Origin: Actinomycetota bacterium
GTDB lineage: Bacteria > Actinomycetota > Thermoleophilia > Gaiellales > Gaiellaceae
Length of the DNA: 64,000 nucleotides
Direction of reading: 5' to 3'
Assembly: GCA_005884005.1 (NCBI GenBank)
Contig: VAWI01000069.1
Location: 1-64,000, forward strand
The position numbers and the translations under genes are program-made. The first letter of the stretch is position 1. Each line of letters opens with the position of its first letter. The notes below the pieces were generated by a model. That model made no database searches. It was not told the origin of the DNA and saw nothing but the letters and a program-made list of their open reading frames with translations. Below, in pieces: positions 4,414 to 58,174 of this stretch.

Positions 4414-5856
4414 GTGCGGCGCCACCTCCTGATCGCGACTGCGCTCTGCCTCGTCGCGGTCGCAGCCGGCGCAGCGTTGATGCGCGGTGCCTCCTCACAC
4501 GAAGCGGTGCGCCCTCCAACAGTGCCGCTCGAGGGGATCCACAAGATCAAGCATGTCGTGATGATCATGCAGGAGAACCGCTCCTTCGACTCCTACTTCG
4601 GCACGTTTCCGGGCGCCGATGGGATCCCGATGGATCGTGGCGAGCCGCTGGTCTGCGCCTTCGACCCGAAGACCCGGAGGTGTATCGAGCCGTTCCACGA
4701 TCCACGCGACCGGAACATCGGCGGTCCACACGACCACCTGAACGCCATCCACGACATCAACCACCGCCTGATGGACGGGTTCGTCTGGCAGGAGCGGAAG
4801 GTGCTCCATCGCGCCTGCCTGGTCAGGAACGATCCCGCGTGTTCGGTGAGCGCGGACCGGATCGACGTGATGGGTTACCACGACGCGCGCGAGATTCCCA
4901 ACTACTGGGCCTACGCGCGGAACTTCGTCCTCCAGGACCACATGTTCCAGCCGGACACCTCCTGGAGCCTGCCGGCCCACCTGTTCGCCGTTTCGGAGTG
5001 GTCTGCGAAGTGCTCGCGGCGGGGCGACCCGATGAGCTGCGTCAACGCTATCCAGTCTCCTCCGTCGCCGCCAGGGGAGCCTCAGTCGAACGGAACGCGT
5101 CCCGACTATGCGTGGACCGATCTCACCTACCTGTTGCACAAGCACCATGTCTCCTGGCGCTATTACGTCTTCAAAGGCGGCGAGCCCGACTGCCAAGACG
5201 ACGGCGCAATGTTTTGTGGCCCGAAGAAGCAGAACGCCAAGACCCCTGGGATCTGGAATCCGCTGCCGTGGTTCACGACCGTCCGCCAGGATCACCAGGT
5301 CCGGAACATCACGTCGGTCAGCCACTTCTACTGGGCGGCCAAGCACGGCAAGCTCCCGGCCGTCTCGTGGGTCATCCCCAATAACAAAGTGAGCGAGCAC
5401 CCCCCGGCACTCGTCAGTCGCGGCCAAGCCTGGGTGACCGGCCTGGTCAACGCGATCATGCATGGCCCGAACTGGAAGTCGACCGCGATCTTTCTGACGT
5501 GGGACGACTGGGGTGGCTTCTACGACCACGTTGCGCCACCGATCGTCGACTGGAACGGCTACGGGCTGCGCGTGCCCGGGATCGTGATCTCGCCCTACGC
5601 CCGGCGCGGATTCATCGATCACCAGGACCTGAGCTTCGACGCATACGTGAAGTTCATCGAGGACGACTTCCTGCACGGCGAGCGGCTCGATCCGGCTACG
5701 GACGGGCGCCCCGACCCGCGCCCGAGCGTCCGCGAGACCTCGCCTCTCCTCGGCACTCTCGTCCGCGAGTTCGATTTCCGACAGAAGCCGCGGCCACCGC
5801 TCATCCTGCCGACGCATCCCGGATTCAAGGAGCGCCAGGCCAAGAACCGGGGTTAG
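4414..5856 (+). CDS. Secreted phosphoesterase, phospholipase C / acid phosphatase family
   Basis: The 480-residue protein starts [20 protein letters not shown], a signal peptide or membrane anchor. Next comes [20 protein letters not shown], the N-terminal metal-binding motif of the PF04185 phosphoesterase family (non-haemolytic phospholipase C and AcpA-like acid phosphatases). A later [15 protein letters not shown] motif and the [11 protein letters not shown] segment carry the other metal and active-site residues. It should hydrolyse phosphate esters, probably phospholipids, outside the cytoplasm. The GTG start at 4414 is the first before the signal peptide. It stands alone, 25 bp before the next gene. 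Confidence 0.9.
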
Positions 5857-8737: not shown

Positions 8738-10573
8738 CTAGCGGACCCGTTCCTTGGCCTGCGCCGCCCACTTGAGCGACTGCAGGTAGAGCAGCGACTT
8801 CGGGCGACGCAGTACCTGGGCCGAGCGGAGGCTGGCGAGGAACTCGTCGCGGTCGTGGAACTCGCGCATCCGGAGGGCGCCGGTGCCGACACCCTGGAGC
8901 ACGTGCGCGTCCGAGCCGGCGCCCATCGTCAGGTTGTACTTGCCCGCGAAGCGCAGCGATTCCTCGTTGTAGCCCTCGAAGAGCAGTCTCGCATTGTAGA
9001 CCTCGAAGACGTCGATCTCGTCGAGGTGGCGTCGAAGGGTCGCCGCGTCCGGAATCGAGTGCATGCGGTCGAACGGGTGGGGGAGATAGACAACGCCCCC
9101 CTGCTCGTGGATCGCTGCCAGCGTGTCGGCGAAGGGCAGTCCGCGGGGGATCTCCTCGGTCAGGAACAGGCCGATCACCTCGCCCTGGTCGCCCGTCTTG
9201 ATCTCCTCTCCCGGGACCACGGTCAGGCTCGTCGTTGCGGCGAGCGCCTCGAGCGCGCCGCCGAAGACGTTGTGATCGGTGATCGCGATCGCGCCGAGCC
9301 CTTCGGTCTCGGCGTGCGTGAGCAGGTCCAGAACCTCGATCGCGCAGTCGTGCGACCACGACGTGTGCATGTGCAGGTCGCAGACGATCCATTCTCGCCC
9401 CGAGAGAGGATCGTCTTTGCTGGCGGCGCGCCGCCGTTTCGCGAGCTTGCGGTAAAGCGCATCGTGCTCGCTCGCGAGCCGGGCGAAGGTCTCGCCTTCG
9501 GCCCGCTGTCGGTTCTCCCGGCCTTCGCGCTGGCGCAATGCGTCGTCCTCGGCAAGCCTCGCCGTTGCAGCGCCGGCCAGCTCGGGCTGCGCCCGCAGAC
9601 CGGGCGGCGCAGCGATCGCCGCGCCGGCGGCGGCCGCTTCGAGCGCGACCCGATCGAGGCCGTCGAGCGCGGGGACGAAGATCGCCGACTCGTTGAGCAA
9701 GGCTGCGCGTGCCGGGCCACTGCGAGCGGTGCGTACGCTGACTCGGCCGACGAGCGCGCGCGGGATCGTCGGCCGGCCGCTGAGAGGCTTCGTCCGCAGC
9801 AGGACGAGCTCCCACTCAGGCAGTTCTCTCAGCTCTCGCAGCACCGAGCGCGCGAGTTGCCGCTCCGTGGGCCGCCATTCGAGCACGATTCGCTTGTGCT
9901 CTTCGGCCGGCCGGAATAGCTCGGCGTCAACGCCTGTGAAGATGATCCGGTAGTCGCCGGGCAGGCGCTCTGCGGCAGCAGCCGCGGCCTCGGGGGAGGT
10001 CGCGAGCAGCGCGTCGACTCGGGAGAGCAGGCGCTCGCGCTGAGGCTTCCCGGGCGGGTAACCGAGCCGCTCCGCGGAGAGGAAGGTGGCGACGCCGAGC
10101 GCGTGCGAGTCGCGCAGCGCCAGGTACGACAGGCTTGGCAGGCCGGGCTCGAACCCGTGAACGATGTCGAAGCGGCCGCGCTGCAGCGCGAGTGCCAGGT
10201 TTGCCCGGACGCCAACCGGAACCCCGATCCGGCTTCGTCGCGAGACCGGCAGCGCCGGGCCGAGCGCGATCACCTCCGCGCTCCGTGGTGCAGATCGGCG
10301 GCGGGTGGCCCCCGACAAGCCGGTTTTGGCGGAGCCGCGGGCAAAGCCCGCAACTCCTTTTTGGTCGGCGCCGACAAGCGGCGCCTCAGCACCAACGCCG
10401 TCAAGCAATGCTCGTCTGCCGGCGACGAGGTCGGACGCGCGAGTCGAGGGGGCGAGCACCGTGACCTCGTGCCCGAGCGCTCGGAGCTCGCGGGCGAGGC
10501 CGTCGACGTGTTCGTTGACGTCGTGCGGCCGCGACCAGGCGAAAGGAGTGACCAGACAGACGCGGAGACCCAC
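8738..10573 (-). CDS. Fusion of a family-4-type glycosyltransferase and a PHP metallophosphoesterase domain
   Basis: The protein has 611 residues. Residues 1 to about 390 form a GT4-like glycosyltransferase, with an N-terminal Rossmann start MGLRVCLVTPFAWSRPHDVN, FDIVHGFEPGLPSL and PALDGLDRVALEAAAAG. From about 405 there is a PHP domain with DLHMHTSWSHDC, ITDHNVFGG, HPFDRMHS and GSDAHV, the metal-binding His/Asp set. It lies directly downstream of Ino1 and PI-phosphate synthase, which suggests glycosylation of an inositol lipid, with the PHP part hydrolysing a phosphate ester (inference). Residues of about 60-97 are a low-complexity insertion. It corresponds to an in-frame copy of palindromic repeat family C and interrupts the usual GT4 N-terminal fold. 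Confidence 0.85.
   Translation of the reverse strand: MGLRVCLVTPFAWSRPHDVNEHVDGLARELRALGHEVTVLAPSTRASDLVAGRRALLDGVGAEAPLVGADQKGVAGFARGSAKTGLSGATRRRSAPRSAEVIALGPALPVSRRSRIGVPVGVRANLALALQRGRFDIVHGFEPGLPSLSYLALRDSHALGVATFLSAERLGYPPGKPQRERLLSRVDALLATSPEAAAAAAERLPGDYRIIFTGVDAELFRPAEEHKRIVLEWRPTERQLARSVLRELRELPEWELVLLRTKPLSGRPTIPRALVGRVSVRTARSGPARAALLNESAIFVPALDGLDRVALEAAAAGAAIAAPPGLRAQPELAGAATARLAEDDALRQREGRENRQRAEGETFARLASEHDALYRKLAKRRRAASKDDPLSGREWIVCDLHMHTSWSHDCAIEVLDLLTHAETEGLGAIAITDHNVFGGALEALAATTSLTVVPGEEIKTGDQGEVIGLFLTEEIPRGLPFADTLAAIHEQGGVVYLPHPFDRMHSIPDAATLRRHLDEIDVFEVYNARLLFEGYNEESLRFAGKYNLTMGAGSDAHVLQGVGTGALRMREFHDRDEFLASLRSAQVLRRPKSLLYLQSLKWAAQAKERVR
10331..10385 (-). repeat. Repeat family C copy inserted in frame in a coding gene
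   Basis: Read on the minus strand, this is a first hairpin GGCGCCG-CTTGT-CGGCGCC (10367-10385), then GACCAAAAA, then a second hairpin with 12-nt arms around a TTT loop (arms 10331-10342 and 10346-10357, forward coordinates). The same order occurs at 14715-14767 and around 57531-57584. Here the element is translated as part of the glycosyltransferase-PHP protein without a stop or frameshift. Confidence 0.75.
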
Positions 10574-14673: not shown

Positions 14674-14767
14674 GCGGTGACGCGGCTTGCACTCGTCCTC
14701 GTCACCGCGGCCAAGGCACCGCTTGCGGTGCCGACATGGAGGACATGCGGGCTTTGCCCGCGTGTCC
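14674..14767 (+). repeat. Run of three hairpins including repeat family C
   Basis: The hairpins follow one another. CGCGGTGAC pairs with GTCACCGCG (14674-14682 / 14701-14709). Then comes GGCACCGC-TT-GCGGTGCC (14715-14732). Last is GGACATGCGGGC-TTT-GCCCGCGTGTCC (14741-14767). The last two, joined by GACATGGA, are the family C unit also seen at 10331-10385 and 57531-57584. The structure fills the space between the small acidic gene and the EamA gene. Confidence 0.75.
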
Positions 14768-14783
14768 GTCCTAGCGTTTGGCT

Positions 14784-15698
14784 GTGAGGTTCGCGGCGCT
14801 GATAGCAGTCAGTGCCGTTTGGGGGGTGACCTTCGTACAGGTGAAGGACGCGGTCGCGGTCTATCCGCTGTTCGCGTTTCTGGCCGTCCGCTACGCGATC
14901 GCGACGGGCGTGCTCGGGCTCGTGGCTGTCCGCCGAGTGCCTACGCTGGGGCGCTCCGGGCTGGGAGCAGGAGCGCTGCTCGGCGCACTGCTCGGCCTCG
15001 GGATCGGCTTGCAGACGGCAGGGCTCGAACGCACCACGGTCTCGAGCACCGGCTTTATCACGGGGCTGTACGTCGTCCTGACGCCGTTGTTCGGGCTCGT
15101 TCTGTTTCGTACGCGCGTCGGCGCCGAGGTCTGGCTCGGCGTCGTGCTCTCGGTCGTCGGCCTCGGTTTGCTCTCGGGCGTCCACGCAGGCTCGTTCGGA
15201 GGCGACGCGCTCGTGCTCGCCTCGACCTCGGCGCAGGCGCTGCAGATCGTGCTGGTCGAGCGCTACGCGACCCGCTACGACGCGATCGCGCTGACGTTCG
15301 TCGAGATGGCGACCTGCTTTGCCGGTTTCCTCGCGATCGCGCTGGCGCTCGGCGATCTAAGCGTCCCGCGCGGGTGGACGGTCTGGGGGGCGCTGCTCGT
15401 GACTGCTGTCTTCGCGAGCGCACTGGCCTACCTGATCCAGATCTGGGCCCAACGGCGGATGAGCGCCGCTCGGATCGCACTCGTCTTCGCACTCGAAACT
15501 GTCTTCGCAGGGCTGTTCGGCTACGTGCTCAAAGACGATCGCCTGGGCTGGCTCGGCTGGGGCGGCTGCGCCTTGATCCTCGCGGCGATCGTCCTTGCGG
15601 AGCCCGCCGCAGCGGACTTGCTCAGAGCAGCCAGCGCCCGTTCTCCTGGACGACTTCGCCGTCGCACAGGAGCTGCCCGCCCGGGCGCAGGTCCTTGA
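14784..15698 (+). CDS. EamA/DMT-family membrane transporter
   Basis: The 304-residue protein has ten predicted membrane helices in two EamA repeats. Each starts with a motif of the type AVWGVTFVQVKDAV or is preceded by ETVFAGLFGYVLKDD. Members export or import small metabolites such as amino acids or nucleotide precursors; the substrate is not predictable. The GTG at 14784 starts the first helix, and a TTG two codons upstream is also possible. The 3' end overlaps the convergent aminopeptidase gene by 77 bp, so its last 25 or so residues are basic and poorly conserved-looking. Confidence 0.85.
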   Translation: MRFAALIAVSAVWGVTFVQVKDAVAVYPLFAFLAVRYAIATGVLGLVAVRRVPTLGRSGLGAGALLGALLGLGIGLQTAGLERTTVSSTGFITGLYVVLTPLFGLVLFRTRVGAEVWLGVVLSVVGLGLLSGVHAGSFGGDALVLASTSAQALQIVLVERYATRYDAIALTFVEMATCFAGFLAIALALGDLSVPRGWTVWGALLVTAVFASALAYLIQIWAQRRMSAARIALVFALETVFAGLFGYVLKDDRLGWLGWGGCALILAAIVLAEPAAADLLRAASARSPGRLRRRTGAARPGAGP

Positions 15699-39423: not shown

Positions 39424-40149
39424 GTGGCCGGCGAGCGAGTCAAGCTGTCCGTACGCGAGCGCGAGGGCCGGGGAACCGGCGATTCTCGGCGCCTGCGCCG
39501 CGAAGGAATGATCCCGGGTGTCCTCTACGGGCGCGGGAAGCAGCCGCATGCTATTTGCGTCGAGGAGCGGGAGCTGCGGCGGGTATTGACAGGCGATCAC
39601 GGCCTTCATGCGATTCTCGACGTGAGCCTCGACAAGCAAAAGACGACGCACGCCTCGATTCTCAAGGACTACCAGGTGCATCCGGTCCGCGGCTACGTGA
39701 CCCACATCGACTTGCAAGAGGTGAGGCTCGACCAGCCGATCCAGGCGCAGGTCGTCGTAGAGCTCGTCGGCGATCCTGAGGGCGTCAAGGAAGGCGGCGT
39801 CCTCTCGCAGGTACAGCGCGAGATCAACGTCGAGGCGCTGCCGCTCGAGATCCCCGAGCGATTGGAGCTCGACGTCAGCGGGATGGCGATCGGCGACACG
39901 ATGAGGCTCGCCGACCTGCCCGCGCACGAGGGTGTGACCTACCTCGACGATCCCGAGGAGACGGTGCTCGCCACGGTGGGGGCACCGACGCAGATCGTCG
40001 AACCGGAGCCCGAGGAAGAGGAGCTCGCAGAGGGCGAGGAGCTGCCCGAGGGCGAGGTGCCGGAGGGCGAGGAGGCACCGGAGGGCGCCGCCGAGGCGCC
40101 GGCCGAGCCGGAGGCGGACGCCGCCGGCGAGCAGGGCACAACCGAATAA
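39424..40149 (+). CDS. rplY: Ribosomal protein L25/general stress protein Ctc
   Basis: The 241-residue protein has an N-terminal L25 domain that binds 5S rRNA (VREREGRGTGDSRRLRREGM, IPGVLYG). A TL5/Ctc C-terminal beta domain ends near LPAHEGVTYLDDPEETVL, and a long Glu/Pro/Ala-rich acidic tail follows. The gene is followed directly by pth, the usual partner. It starts at GTG 39424. Confidence 0.93.
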   Translation: MAGERVKLSVREREGRGTGDSRRLRREGMIPGVLYGRGKQPHAICVEERELRRVLTGDHGLHAILDVSLDKQKTTHASILKDYQVHPVRGYVTHIDLQEVRLDQPIQAQVVVELVGDPEGVKEGGVLSQVQREINVEALPLEIPERLELDVSGMAIGDTMRLADLPAHEGVTYLDDPEETVLATVGAPTQIVEPEPEEEELAEGEELPEGEVPEGEEAPEGAAEAPAEPEADAAGEQGTTE

Positions 40150-40153
40150 TCGA

Positions 40154-40175
40154 GGAAAATGCGTTCGCATTTTCC
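40154..40175 (+). promoter_or_regulatory. Perfect hairpin containing the pth start codon
   Basis: GGAAAATGCG-TT-CGCATTTTCC is a perfect 10-bp stem. The ATG of pth (40159-40161) lies in the 5' arm and its AGGA ribosome-binding site at the base, so folding would hide the start. This could couple pth translation to ribosomes finishing the upstream L25 gene, 4 bp before. Confidence 0.45.
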
Positions 40176-40791
40176 GCGGGCGCTAGTTTCTCGCATCGCT
40201 TCGCTCGCGAACACGAAGAAAGGCGTCTCCTCCCTCGACCTGCTCGTCGTCGGGCTGGGAAACCCCGGGCGCGAGCACGAGCGCGAACGCCACAACGTCG
40301 GTTGGATGGCGGTTGACGAGCTCGCGCGTCGCACGGACGGCCGCTGGCGCGCCAAGTTCTCCGGTCAGCTCGCCGAGGTTCGCCTCAACGGGTTGCGGCT
40401 TGCCTTGCTCAAGCCCGAGACGTTCATGAACGACTCCGGCCGCTCAGTTGCGGCAGCGACTCGCTTCTTCAAGGTCGACCCGGAGTCGCTGCTCGTCGTC
40501 CACGACGACGTCGATCTCGACTCCGGGCGGCTCCAGGCCCGCGCCGGCGGGGGCCTCGCCGGTCACAACGGCCTGCGCTCGCTCGCGCAGGCGCTCGGGA
40601 CGCAGGACTTCCTGCGGCTGAGGATCGGCGTCGGTCGGCCCGGCCGAGGCGATCCGCGATCGGTTGCCGACTACGTGCTGTCTCCGTTCGAGCTCGAAGA
40701 GGACGTTGGGGCGCTTGTTTCCCGCTCCGCCGACGCGGTCGAAACGCTCGCGCGCGAAGGCGTCGAGGCAGCGCAGCAGCGCTTCAATTAG
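40159..40791 (+). CDS. pth: Peptidyl-tRNA hydrolase
   Basis: The 210-residue enzyme cleaves peptidyl-tRNA released from stalled ribosomes. It has LLVVGLGNPGREHERERHNV with the catalytic His, LLKPETFMNDSG, LLVVHDDVDLDSGRLQ with the catalytic Asp, and GGLAGHNGLRSLAQAL. The conserved protein begins at about residue 26. The first 25 residues, encoded by a palindrome-rich stretch, have no counterpart in typical Pth. There is no other ATG, GTG or TTG before the conserved start, so ATG 40159 is used. Confidence 0.93.
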   Translation: MRSHFPRALVSRIASLANTKKGVSSLDLLVVGLGNPGREHERERHNVGWMAVDELARRTDGRWRAKFSGQLAEVRLNGLRLALLKPETFMNDSGRSVAAATRFFKVDPESLLVVHDDVDLDSGRLQARAGGGLAGHNGLRSLAQALGTQDFLRLRIGVGRPGRGDPRSVADYVLSPFELEEDVGALVSRSADAVETLAREGVEAAQQRFN

Positions 40792-45186: not shown

Positions 45187-45214
45187 TTAAGGCGGGCCTG
45201 GCGGAACGTAGCTT

Positions 45215-47409
<2,195 letters not shown>

Positions 47410-47455: not shown

Positions 47456-47622
47456 CAGTGGCCCGATCGGCAATATTCGCCGGCTCCCTGGCCCGCGATC
47501 ACGCTGCGCCAGAGTCCACGCTCGCCCTTGTCAAGGCTGCAAGCCTTGCCTGCGGACGATCGCGGCCTCTGACTTGATGCTCGCGACCCAGGAAGCGGGC
47601 AACATTGCCGACCGGACCACTA
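47456..47622. repeat. Repeat family A, full copy 1
   Basis: This 167-bp element is an imperfect palindrome along its whole length. It starts CAGTGGCCCGATCGGC and ends with the complement of TAGTGGTCCGGTCGGC. The centre is CAAGGCTGCAAGCCTTG. It matches the copy at 49891 with about 17 differences and the same length. It fills most of the 224-bp gap between eno and pyk, ending 11 bp before the pyk ATG. Confidence 0.9.
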
Positions 47623-47633
47623 GGCTAAGACCC

Positions 47634-49445: not shown

Positions 49446-49893
49446 GGCCGTCGTTGCGAGACAGCTCGGTCGTCCGCCTCGCGCCTTCCGGCGCGTAGCC
49501 GTCCGCTGTCCTTACGGCCGGCCGGCCGTGACAGAACAGTGGCCGCGCGACGCTGCCGGCGCGCCGTTCCCGACCACCTACTACCTGACGTGCCCGCACC
49601 TCGTCGCGGCGATCTCCCGACTGGAGGCAGGCGGCGGCGTCGAGCGCTGGACGCGCGCCGTCCAAGATGATCCCGCGCTGCGCGCAAGCCTCGAACGCGC
49701 GAACGAGGATCAGCATGAGCTGCGACCCGAGCTCCCTGGTGGGATCGCGGGGTCGACGCGCACCGGCAGTCTGAAGTGCCTCCACGCGCACGCGGCATTC
49801 GCGCTTGCACGCCCGGGGTACGAGCTCGGCGAGCAGATCTTGGCCGAGCTGGACCGGCTCTGGCCCGATTCAGGCTGTTGCAGCGCGGATTAG
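49435..49893 (+). CDS. DUF501 family protein
   Basis: The 152-residue protein has VVARQLGRPPRAFRRVAVRC, PTTYYLTCPHLVAAISRLE and KCLHAHAAFALARPGYELG, the conserved cores of DUF501. The paired Cys and His residues suggest metal binding. The function is unknown. It overlaps the DivIC gene by 11 bp. Its TAG stop (49891-49893) is the first three bases of a family A repeat. In many actinobacteria an exopolyphosphatase gene follows; none does here. Confidence 0.88.
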   Translation: MEDEAVVARQLGRPPRAFRRVAVRCPYGRPAVTEQWPRDAAGAPFPTTYYLTCPHLVAAISRLEAGGGVERWTRAVQDDPALRASLERANEDQHELRPELPGGIAGSTRTGSLKCLHAHAAFALARPGYELGEQILAELDRLWPDSGCCSAD

Positions 49894-50057
49894 TGGCCTG
49901 ACCGGCAACGTTCGCCGGCTCCCTGGCCCGCGATCACGCGGCGCCAGAATCCACGCTCGCCCTTGTCAAGGCTGCGAGCCTTGCCTGTGGGCGATCGCGG
50001 CCTCTGGCTTGGTGCTCGCGACCCAGGAAGCGGGCAACGTCACCGGCCAGACCACTA
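49891..50057. repeat. Repeat family A, full copy 2
   Basis: This 167-bp element starts TAGTGGCCTGACCGGCAACG and ends with the complement of TAGTGGTCTGGCCGGTGACG. The two arms pair imperfectly along their whole length and meet at CAAGGCTGCGAGCCTTG. It is about 90% identical to the copy at 47456. Its first three bases stop the DUF501 frame. No ORF of its own is present. Confidence 0.9.
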
Positions 50058-50073
50058 GGTTTCGGGCACGCGC

Positions 50074-52296: not shown

Positions 52297-52518
52297 ATGA
52301 CCGCATCCCGGAAGAGTCCGACCGCAGCCGCCGACGGCGACGTAATCCCGCTTTCTGCCGCCGGCGATCATGTGAAAGGGGAGTTCCGCTGCGCTGAGTG
52401 CGGATATGCGATCACGGTCTGCCGGAAACTGCCTCCGTGCGCGATGTGCGGCTGCGAGTCGTGGCAGGCGGGCCTGTGGCGGCCGTTCAGACGGGCGCTG
52501 GAAACGTCCACGTTTTAG
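52297..52518 (+). CDS. Small zinc-ribbon protein
   Basis: The 73-residue protein has FRCAECGYAITVCRKLPPCA followed by MCGCESW. The two CxxC-type knuckles look like a rubredoxin-like or zinc-ribbon fold. The function is unknown. Its TAG stop (52516-52518) is the end of the following family B repeat. Confidence 0.65.
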   Translation: MTASRKSPTAAADGDVIPLSAAGDHVKGEFRCAECGYAITVCRKLPPCAMCGCESWQAGLWRPFRRALETSTF

Positions 52519-52689
52519 GAGGGCTTGGCGAAACGCAGTCTGTGCCGTCGGGCCGCGCTGCTCGCTACCGGCTCCGCCTTGGTATCGCAGTCGCGCCCGT
52601 AGCATTTAGCTACGAACACCTCCCTGCTTTCTTGCCTCGGAACGACCATCGCGCCCCGACGACGAGCGGCGTTCCACCAAGCCCTCCTA
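52516..52689. repeat. Repeat family B, copy 2
   Basis: This 174-bp element has perfect ends TAGGAGGGCTTGG and its complement. The inner hairpin is CGTAGC-ATTTA-GCTACG, which replaces the different but equally paired stem of copy 1. It sits exactly between two convergent genes. Its left TAG stops the zinc-ribbon gene and its right CTA stops the gene on the other strand. Confidence 0.85.
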
Positions 52690-56452: not shown

Positions 56453-57471
56453 CTCGCGTGAGACGCGGTGCGCTCGCAGGGATTTTCGCGCTTGCGCTTG
56501 CTGTTGCAGGTCTTCTCGCGGCTGCGGTCGCCTCGGGCGCGCGACCGCTCTCGGTTCTGACGACGACGGGAACCACCGGCGCCACGACCACGACGCCGGC
56601 GCCCTCGATCGCGGCCGGCGTCACGATCGGAGGAGTCCCGGTCGGAGGGCTGACCGCGGCTGACGCTTACGATGCGGTCAACGAGTCGTTCTCGCAGCCG
56701 CTCGTCATCATCGTTGCGGCCCACCGACTCGCACCTCAACCCGCAAACCTCGGCGCCGTGGCCCGGATCGGCGAAGCGGTCGCCAGAGCGGGAAGCGCTC
56801 TGCCGGGAGCGCAAGTCCCGCTCGCAGTCTCGGTCAACCGAGCCCGGGTTCGTGCGTATGTCGGTGTGCTCGCGAAGCGGTTCGATGCGCAACCGGTCGA
56901 CGCGCGGCTCTTCCTCCGGAACCTCCGCCCCTGGATCGCGAAGCCGGTCGTCGGCCTCGCGATCTACCGCGCCCGGGCGGAGGTGGCAATCGTCAGCGCG
57001 TTACTCGGCAATAAGCGTGGCCCCCTGCGGCTCCGCCAGAAGGTGGTTCCGCCGACAACAACGCGGGTTAATTTCGGCCCCGTGATCGTGATCCGGCGAG
57101 GTTCCAACCGGCTCTATCTGTATCGGGGAATGCGGCTCTGGCGGATGTTCCCGGTGGCGACCGGCCAGGCGAGCTACCCGACCCCGCTCGGTCGGTTCCA
57201 GATTGTCGTCAAGTGGAGGAACCCGTGGTGGTACCCACCGAGTTCCCCCTGGGCTCAGGGACTCAAGCCGGTTCCTCCGGGGCCGGGCAACCCGCTCGGG
57301 ACGCGGTGGATGGGCCTGAGCGCGCCCGGCGTGGGTATTCACGGAACGCCCGATGCCGCCTCGATCGGCTACTCCGCCTCGCACGGCTGCATTCGGATGC
57401 GGATTTCCGAGGCCGAGTGGCTGTTTCGGCAGGTTCGCATCGGCACCACGGTTTTCATCGTTTCGGCATGA
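56449..57471 (+). CDS. L,D-transpeptidase (YkuD family)
   Basis: The 340-residue protein has a signal anchor (residues 7-28). A PG4-like middle domain begins at VTIGGVPVGGLTAADAYDAV. The C-terminal YkuD domain has the active-site HGTPDAASIGYSASHGCIRM, where the Cys attacks the peptide. It forms 3-3 cross-links in peptidoglycan. ATG 56449 overlaps the GDPD stop. Confidence 0.93.
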   Translation: MTRVRRGALAGIFALALAVAGLLAAAVASGARPLSVLTTTGTTGATTTTPAPSIAAGVTIGGVPVGGLTAADAYDAVNESFSQPLVIIVAAHRLAPQPANLGAVARIGEAVARAGSALPGAQVPLAVSVNRARVRAYVGVLAKRFDAQPVDARLFLRNLRPWIAKPVVGLAIYRARAEVAIVSALLGNKRGPLRLRQKVVPPTTTRVNFGPVIVIRRGSNRLYLYRGMRLWRMFPVATGQASYPTPLGRFQIVVKWRNPWWYPPSSPWAQGLKPVPPGPGNPLGTRWMGLSAPGVGIHGTPDAASIGYSASHGCIRMRISEAEWLFRQVRIGTTVFIVSA

Positions 57472-57530
57472 GCCTTCCAAACCCGGCTTGTGGAATCGGC
57501 GTGGTTGCGGAACAAACTGGGGGTCGTATG

Positions 57531-57584
57531 AGCGGTTGCTTGCGATGCCGACCTGGAGGCCGTAGCGGCTTTGCCGCTGCGGCC
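57531..57584 (+). repeat. Repeat family C, second intergenic copy
   Basis: GCTTGCGATGCCGACCTGGA leads into a perfect-length hairpin, GGCCGTAGCGGC-TTT-GCCGCTGCGGCC (57558-57584). The 12-3-12 layout, the single G-U wobble at stem position 6 and the TTT loop match the copy at 14741-14767. The first hairpin is degenerate here. Direct repeats CCAAACCCGGCT flank the region (57478 and 57587). The whole 163-bp spacer (57472-57634) has no gene. Confidence 0.75.
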
Positions 57585-57634
57585 GTCCAAACCCGGCTGA
57601 GGGAACAGCCTCCCCCAGGGAGGGCCGACGCGGT

Positions 57635-58174
57635 ATGAGCATGCGCCCGGTTCGTCTCGCTTTGCAGGCGCTCGCGCTGGCGGGAGTTGCGGGACTCCTT
57701 GCCCTGCTCATATGGAAGCTGACGCACGATCCCGGCGGCGGCGTCGCGGCTCAGCTCTCCCAGGGCAAGCGACCGACCGCGCCCAACTTCACGCTCCCAC
57801 GGCTTGACGGGGACGGAACGGTTGACCTCGCCGCGATCAAAAAGCCACGCGTGCTCGACTTCTTCGCCTCCTGGTGCTACGCGTGCCCTCGCGAGTCGCA
57901 GCGGCTCGAGCGCTATTCGCACAAATACGGCAACGAAATCGCCTTCGTCGGCGTCAACACCGACGACTTCAGCGCTGACGCGAAGCGGTACGTGCGCCGC
58001 TACGGCCTCACCTACACGATCGTTCGCGAGCAGGGCCGCAAGGTGCTGAACGCCTGGGGCGGCCTGCCGATCCCCCGCATCTTCTTCATCGACCGCAACG
58101 GCAAGGTGGTCGGACAGATGCAGGCCGAAGAGGATCTGCCACGGTTTCTGAAGCAGCTCACGGCCAAGGCATGA
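57635..58174 (+). CDS. TlpA/ResA-type thiol-disulphide oxidoreductase
   Basis: The 179-residue protein has an N-terminal membrane anchor (about 9-28). The thioredoxin domain carries the redox motif FASWCYACPRES and the cis-Pro segment LPIPRIFFIDRNG. It would reduce apocytochrome c thiols outside the cytoplasm. It is coupled to CcmH and CcdA, which supports that role. Confidence 0.93.
   Translation: MSMRPVRLALQALALAGVAGLLALLIWKLTHDPGGGVAAQLSQGKRPTAPNFTLPRLDGDGTVDLAAIKKPRVLDFFASWCYACPRESQRLERYSHKYGNEIAFVGVNTDDFSADAKRYVRRYGLTYTIVREQGRKVLNAWGGLPIPRIFFIDRNGKVVGQMQAEEDLPRFLKQLTAKA

Follow-up and report, generated by a model that had tools for sequence, protein, structure and literature searches.

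The double hairpin repeat that we call family C is very probably a high-copy, non-autonomous mobile DNA element, similar to REPs and MITEs. We think so because most of the sites that we compared are specific to one species, because an occupied site is longer by about the length of one array unit, because a significant minority of insertions have flanking repeats, and because the element prefers intergenic locations, has inserted in frame in a gene, and forms head-to-tail arrays. Three copies lie in the window (by which we mean the whole 64,000-nucleotide stretch that we analyzed), whose host, an uncultured actinobacterium from soil, belongs to the Gaiellaceae (Thermoleophilia). We did not find any paper on the repeats of this group.

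Both hairpins are parts of one element, with a consensus of about (C)YRAGGCGTCGCTTGCGATGCCGACCTGGAGGCCGTGGCGGCTTTGCCGCTGCGGCCGTCTAAACCCGG. The conserved core is about 67 nt (the repeat is about 70 letters) and comprises a 5' YRAG, the first hairpin (H1, about GGCGTCG-CTTG-CGATGCC), a short linker, the second hairpin (H2), and then TCTAAACCCGG. On its 3' side, the core is followed by a tail that is poorly conserved and about 5-26 nt long. H2 has a perfect 12-bp stem of variable sequence and a TTT-type loop, and its helix extends beyond one bulged G. An earlier note on this DNA had missed the fixed parts around H2, namely this helix extension (TGGA / T-C-Y-A, with the bulged G) and the conserved 3' flank TCYAAACCCGG.

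The first copy in the window (14709-14784, plus strand) has H1 at 14715-14732 and H2 at 14741-14767 (GGACATGCGGGC-TTT-GCCCGCGTGTCC). With the outer extension (TGGA / TCC, bulged G at 14768), which is indicated by the sequence, the fold, and covariation of the extension pairs, its second helix spans 14737-14771. In the second copy (57526-57601, plus strand), H1 is degenerate: its 5' arm is lost and reads GGTTG in place of GGCGTCG. The H2 of this copy is intact (57558-57584, GGCCGTAGCGGC-TTT-GCCGCTGCGGCC), and the conserved 3' flank follows (TCCAAACCCGG). The third copy is on the minus strand (10314-10391, or 10284-10394 with its tail and duplication). Its H1 is at 10367-10385 and its H2, which runs from 10357 to 10331, is GGAGTTGCGGGC-TTT-GCCCGCGGCTCC, with two wobbles. 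The three copies belong to one family. Their DNA-fold z-scores are -6.4, -3.8, and -3.4. A covariance model built from 22 copies (R1) found all three in a 463-kb search at E = 1e-15 to 1e-10, which is far beyond chance, with 76.8, 82.5, and 60.6 bits, respectively. The details of the stems in the earlier note were correct, as can be read directly from the sequence. The H2s at 14741 and 57558 have the same 12-TTT-12 layout and one wobble each (a T-G at pair 6 in both), and at five stem pairs (3, 5, 7, 8, and 9) they differ with both partners changed. The change from A-T to G-C in H1 is also real (GGCACCG-CTTG-CGGTGCC at 14715-14732, GGCGCCG-CTTGT-CGGCGCC at 10367-10385).

The earlier note's interpretation would have failed if there were no further copies, but there are many. 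A pattern for H2 only has 82 matches in the genome, as compared to 7 for a reversed control. R1 has at least 146 matches in the host's 2.7-Mb genome, and it has 62 matches in 463 kb of contigs. We read 20-kb stretches of contigs from the host and from its congener G001, so the total number of copies, which is probably about 300 or more, is partly extrapolated. Three congeners have many copies as well (the counts from the R1 search are lower bounds). Elsewhere in the family, seven genera have 26-77 copies and many have none, so the distribution is patchy; in 24 genomes of the order that belong to other families, R1 had no match at E 0.01. Among the matches listed, the named records with the exact core pattern are all from soil Actinobacteria, including uncultured Gaiellaceae and Thermoleophilia. 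We rejected carriage by phage or plasmids, as the exact core pattern was not found in viral contigs and had no plasmid match. We also noticed a subfamily in other genera (L072, L075, L076, L087, L088, and L090) with a different conserved 3' tail, about AAACGACCGGTCGAMCCGC; in L088, its array pitch is 141 bp.

Comparison of the host with its congener G001, over five collinear blocks (about 87 kb at about 84% identity), gives the clearest view of how the element moves. At 14 of 16 distinct sites, the element is present in one species only, and the empty site is otherwise collinear. On either side of the element, filled and empty sites can be aligned, and the filled one has about 110 bp more (about 98-114 bp in the clean single-copy cases). 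This gain equals the pitch of the head-to-tail arrays, in which neighbors are 94-119 bp apart (median 110). Furthermore, the sequence immediately to the left of the element is found again on the other side, about 42 bp beyond the core: this holds at 16 or more of 20 positions for 17 of 101 arrays but for none of 505 mismatched pairs. It follows that an array unit is the core, the tail, and one copy of the duplicated target. In a wider set, 34 of 210 sites have flanking direct repeats of about 20 bp or longer, while 0.7 were expected. Such repeats are the mark of insertion with a long target duplication.

The best case is L119:19102, which has a perfect 21-bp direct repeat. The duplications vary in length, from about 19 to 37 bp in the clear cases, some of which are inside arrays. 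In the window's genus, 36-46 bp separate the core from the far end of the direct repeat. We considered that all of the approximately 43 bp after the core might be target duplication, but in L119:19102 and L111:8409 the repeat ends sharply at about 20 bp, so we dropped this idea. Most sites lack a recognizable target duplication, which fits decay but does not prove it. As for the origin of the tails, the 22-nt tail of the youngest-looking copy (L119:19102) has no other match with up to 3 mismatches in its own genome or in three congeners. Most tails have no copy nearby beyond what is seen in shuffles. Strong dispersed matches to tails are few, except for a subfamily that shares GGCAAAGCCGATGCC and for copies that are nested in another repeat. 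Two such nested copies, L107:4585 and L112:8375, have no tail and no visible duplication.

The repeat in which family C is nested in L107 and L112 is a second hairpin family, GGAAAATGC-GTTC-GCATTTTCC and then GCGGGCGCTAGTTTCTCGCATCGCTTCGCTCG, which is also found at 40128-40210 of the window, L102:5055-5077, and L103:11972-11988 (in L107 it is at 4570-4690). We came across several other repeats as well. A repeat of about 165 bp lies at 47457-47624 and 49892-50059 of the window and at L107:5519-5688 and L117:2980-3303, with two tandem copies in G001. It is up to 98% identical between the host and G001, as compared to about 84% for the collinear genes; it is either recently mobile or strongly constrained. 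A further dispersed pair (45187-45354 and 52514-52688 of the window) is 80-87% identical over blocks of 64-69 bp. Separately, at L133:4512-4876 and L096:3033-3220, arrays sit at tRNA genes, and each unit contains a repeat of the 5' portion of the tRNA gene next to it.

At 57.5 kb in the window, there are three similar direct repeats on the plus strand that end in ATGAGC. The first, CGGCATGAGC (57464-57473), resembles a target duplication and is at the stop of an upstream L,D-transpeptidase-like gene. The second, TCGTATGAGC (57524-57533), is fused to the second copy of the element. The third, GCGGTATGAGC (57630-57640), is 107 bp from the second and contains the start codon of a TlpA/thioredoxin-like gene. 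These repeats delimit a reduced first unit and a nearly whole second unit of 107 bp. Judging from the layout of the array and a match to the 3' flank, the first unit (57474-57523, plus strand) would be a remnant that comprises the 3' end of an element (CCAAACCCGGCTTG, 57477-57490) and its tail, with both hairpins deleted. The same site is occupied in the congener G003 and empty in G002, where the two genes nearly abut, and in G001, where only a short gap separates them. At 10.3 kb, the element with its tail and duplication forms an in-frame insertion of 111 nt (37 codons) in a glycosyltransferase/PHP-type gene (8738-10573, minus strand). In alignments, this insertion (10284-10394) is absent from G002 and G006 and present in G001. 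The element at 14.7 kb stops right before an EamA-type transporter gene begins. We see no target duplication for this copy, and the matches from G024 and G001 do not include the upstream region.

The earlier note proposed a covariance model and a test for covariation, and when these were carried out, the covariation was significant and exceeded that of all 500 shuffles. In the 22-sequence alignment, 92.3% of cells pair, and there are 41 cells with double changes, as compared to 14.8 after shuffling. For 59 distinct sequences, 91.8% of cells pair, double changes are found in 145 cells (48 after shuffling), and the score for covariation is 0.342 (0.140 after shuffling). This second alignment is biased towards the structure, since it was fitted to the model, and the copies are related paralogs, but the effect is still large. 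If the partners are slid by 1-3 columns, the score falls to 0.03-0.09. For the family as a whole, this supports the claim that selection or copying acts on the folded form.

The origin of the paired changes is another matter. They might be mutational, if one arm serves as the template for correcting the other (quasi-palindrome correction) or if blocks are exchanged, with no selection on the fold; we consider this possible but less likely than not. At the 10.3-kb site, the host's copy and its ortholog in G001 have identical H1s, including the unusual 5-nt loop, and homologous tails, yet H2 is wholly different (GGAGTTGCGGGCTTTGCCCGCGGCTCC in one and GGCCGCGCCGACATGCGCGGCGCGGCC in the other). Similarly, in the array at L111:5888, the H1s of neighboring copies differ by three complete pairs. 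Judging by sequence, both differences look like the block exchange of hairpins rather than stepwise compensation. Also, among 36 pairs of tandem neighbors that are at least 85% identical, single stem changes broke 24 pairs and kept 8. On the other hand, a purely mutational origin leaves unexplained why stem lengths, loop, and bulge are preserved over hundreds of copies. This account complements mobility of the element rather than competing with it.

The tandem neighbors also show that resident copies decay. They diverge by 2.2% in stems, 4.2% at unpaired positions of the element, and 7.6% in the tail and duplication. The slower divergence of the stems could reflect selection, composition, or conversion. 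Because stems diverge more slowly than unpaired positions, some selection may still act on resident copies. But an RNA or structured-DNA role for resident copies, as the earlier note suggested, does not fit with the turnover of sites, the lack of an orientation preference, the lack of a T tract or promoter at 14.7 kb, and the broken pairs. Instead, it looks like the fold is needed, or is copied, during mobilization. A structured-DNA role in transposition is the half of the earlier interpretation that survives. More broadly, covariation in a repeat family can stem from mobilization and hairpin exchange rather than from the function of a resident RNA, which is a caution for covariation-based searches for new RNAs.

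If family C is a mobile element, how might it move? We envision an enzyme, acting in trans, that recognizes the DNA fold of H1, H2, or both, cuts the target with a stagger of at least 20 bp, and inserts the element there. Units would then be gained or lost in an array as the duplicated targets undergo unequal exchange or slippage, or as the same site receives another insertion. Covariation would arise as only those copies that can fold are mobilized and also from the exchange of whole hairpins between copies, presumably by gene conversion. Our searches for Y1_Tnp, PF00078, and NF033594 did not tie any transposase to family C. Our guess is that a DDE-type enzyme would be the most natural, because the IS200/IS605 family makes no larger target duplications (PMC2817692), while elements of the IS1202 group make duplications of 16-28 bp (PMC10132070).

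A specific version of this guess is that family C is a MITE whose DDE transposase makes target duplications of unusual length, much as in the IS1202 group. We view this version as somewhat unlikely. Besides its perfect duplication, L119:19102 has imperfect inverted ends (CGAGGCGTCGCTTG / CAAGCGGCGTCTCG), and L102:11242 has inverted ends at the same offset. However, inverted ends are not significant over all copies, and the duplications seem to reach 31-37 bp in some copies. The one DDE family that we surveyed was NF033594 (ISNCY_2), which we take to be the model for IS1202-type transposases. It had no match in G000-G003, so we rejected an IS1202-type transposase. Nor did we notice separated halves of the element that bracket a gene among the half-element matches in 0.86 Mb (parts of two genomes).

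It is also conceivable, although rather improbable, that family C represents a new class of mobile hairpin DNA: two hairpins with no coding parent, exchanged as cassettes and moved by an undescribed enzyme that always adds about 110 bp. As part of the same improbable proposal, the added sequence would be the core, a unique filler tail, and a target duplication of at least 20 bp.

It is very unlikely that family C is a classical REP or REPIN that is mobilized by a RAYT (a Y1 HUH transposase). Like REPs, it is palindromic, intergenic, present in hundreds of copies, and has complementary stem changes (PMC2817692), and the host does have Y1_Tnp genes. But R1 had no significant match in 22 stretches around Y1_Tnp genes (84 kb from seven genomes). 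The phyletic pattern does not fit either: G024 (which is 91% complete) and G003 have many copies and no Y1_Tnp, while G005, G011, G020, and G021 have Y1_Tnp and no copies. The hairpin that brackets the host's best Y1 gene is a different one (GGGCGTGTCC...GGACACGCCC). Larger target duplications would be foreign to this enzyme family, and head-to-tail dimers, which are common here as arrays, are absent or rare among REPs (PMC3733652). So the context of Y1_Tnp genes and the phyletic pattern largely refute a RAYT. As an aside, the Y1/RAYT-like gene at L032:1519-2148 (G000:C10:28832-29158) is bracketed by GGGCGTGTCC..GGTCTGGCACC..GGACACGCCCC, which is probably its own REP.

Slightly less likely still is a cis-acting structured RNA (a riboswitch, leader, processing site, or terminator) that is kept by selection on the transcript of a neighboring gene. 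The covariation is strong, the RNA folds are very stable, the location is intergenic, and the stems diverge more slowly than unpaired positions, as expected for such an RNA. A simple coding model gives a predicted coding fraction of 0.87 for the sampled stretches, yet of the 43 host arrays in them, 37 lie between genes and 5 overlap genes that the model predicts. Relative to the element, the flanking genes are convergent (+-) in 12 cases, divergent (-+) in 9, co-directional (++) in 9, and opposed (--) in 7, so the 37 intergenic arrays have no orientation bias relative to either flanking gene. A leader RNA or a terminator would favor one side, so a cis-regulatory RNA is unlikely. The high turnover of sites relative to the congener and the prevalence of pair-breaking changes in stems also count against it. 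A scan of the 14.7-kb copy found no terminator-like T tract after H2 and no sigma-70 promoter-like site, and a scan of the window with Rfam 15 found tRNA only and no known structured RNA family at the element. On the basis of site turnover, orientation, and the missing T tract, we rejected an RNA regulator or terminator.

Least plausible of all is a SINE-like retroelement that is copied by a reverse transcriptase in trans: the precise 5' end, variable 3' tail, and variable-length duplications do resemble target-primed reverse transcription, but there is no A-rich tail, and we rejected this route as none of the family's 37 genomes, all carriers included, has a match to RVT_1 (PF00078) (these are draft genomes, so this is not absolute).

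Returning to family C as a mobile element similar to REPs and MITEs, how does it compare to the known classes? Like the GTAG and CGTC superfamilies of REPs (PMC3733652, PMC2817692), it is a GC-rich palindrome with hundreds of intergenic copies, occasional copies in genes, and stem variation that preserves complementarity. But REPs are 20-40 bp, while family C has a two-hairpin core, and it has no GTAG head: instead of an unpaired GTAG or GTGG, the aligned copies have YRAG before H1 and a paired TGGA before H2. The layout of CGTC REPs (a stem of 8-9 bp, a loop of 4-5 nt, and a terminal unpaired CGTC) is not seen either, as H2 has a 12-bp stem and a 3-nt loop. There is a CGTC at the 3' edge of H2, but its C is in the stem and its TC pairs with the GA of the extension. 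H1 (7 bp with a 4-nt loop) lacks the CGTC tag. REPs also differ in that family C has long target duplications and head-to-tail arrays of about 110 bp and no association with a RAYT that we could find: in the 22 Y1_Tnp stretches, no RAYT gene is flanked by the same repeat in inverted orientation. In the sampled stretches, the arrays are on the same strand, with no opposite-strand copy within 200 bp, so we see none of the inverted (head-to-head or tail-to-tail) dimers that predominate among REPs. REPINs are two REPs that are mobilized as a unit (PMC3116915), and similarly the two hairpins of family C move together and have no gene of their own. However, a REPIN is an inverted pair of one REP, while family C has two unlike hairpins in a fixed order.

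Bacterial MITEs are also short, non-autonomous, intergenic elements with target duplications and high copy numbers, and in family C the empty sites and the excess of flanking repeats match this description. Terminal inverted repeats stand out in two copies, L119:19102 and L102:11242, where they have the same offset, but they are not significant over all copies. Family C also differs in that its duplications are about 19-37 bp and in that we did not find a parent insertion sequence. The IS1202 group has similarly long duplications, but its members encode a transposase and have terminal inverted repeats, and carriers in this genus have no match to NF033594. The palindromic elements of Rickettsia, some of which are CGTC repeats (PMC3733652), can lie in frame in genes, much like the 37-codon insertion at 10284-10394, but for family C the copies within genes are a small minority.

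So family C acts like a REP or a MITE, yet it fails the defining features of REPs that we tested and shows only part of those of MITEs. It bears on the question of how bacterial repeats that are short, palindromic, and gene-less are able to spread; for the CGTC-type REPs, no transposase is known (PMC3733652). Family C offers handles on this question that most REP families lack: its empty sites in congeners are clean, its target duplications can be measured, the size of an insertion is constant, and its arrays keep a record of repeated events.
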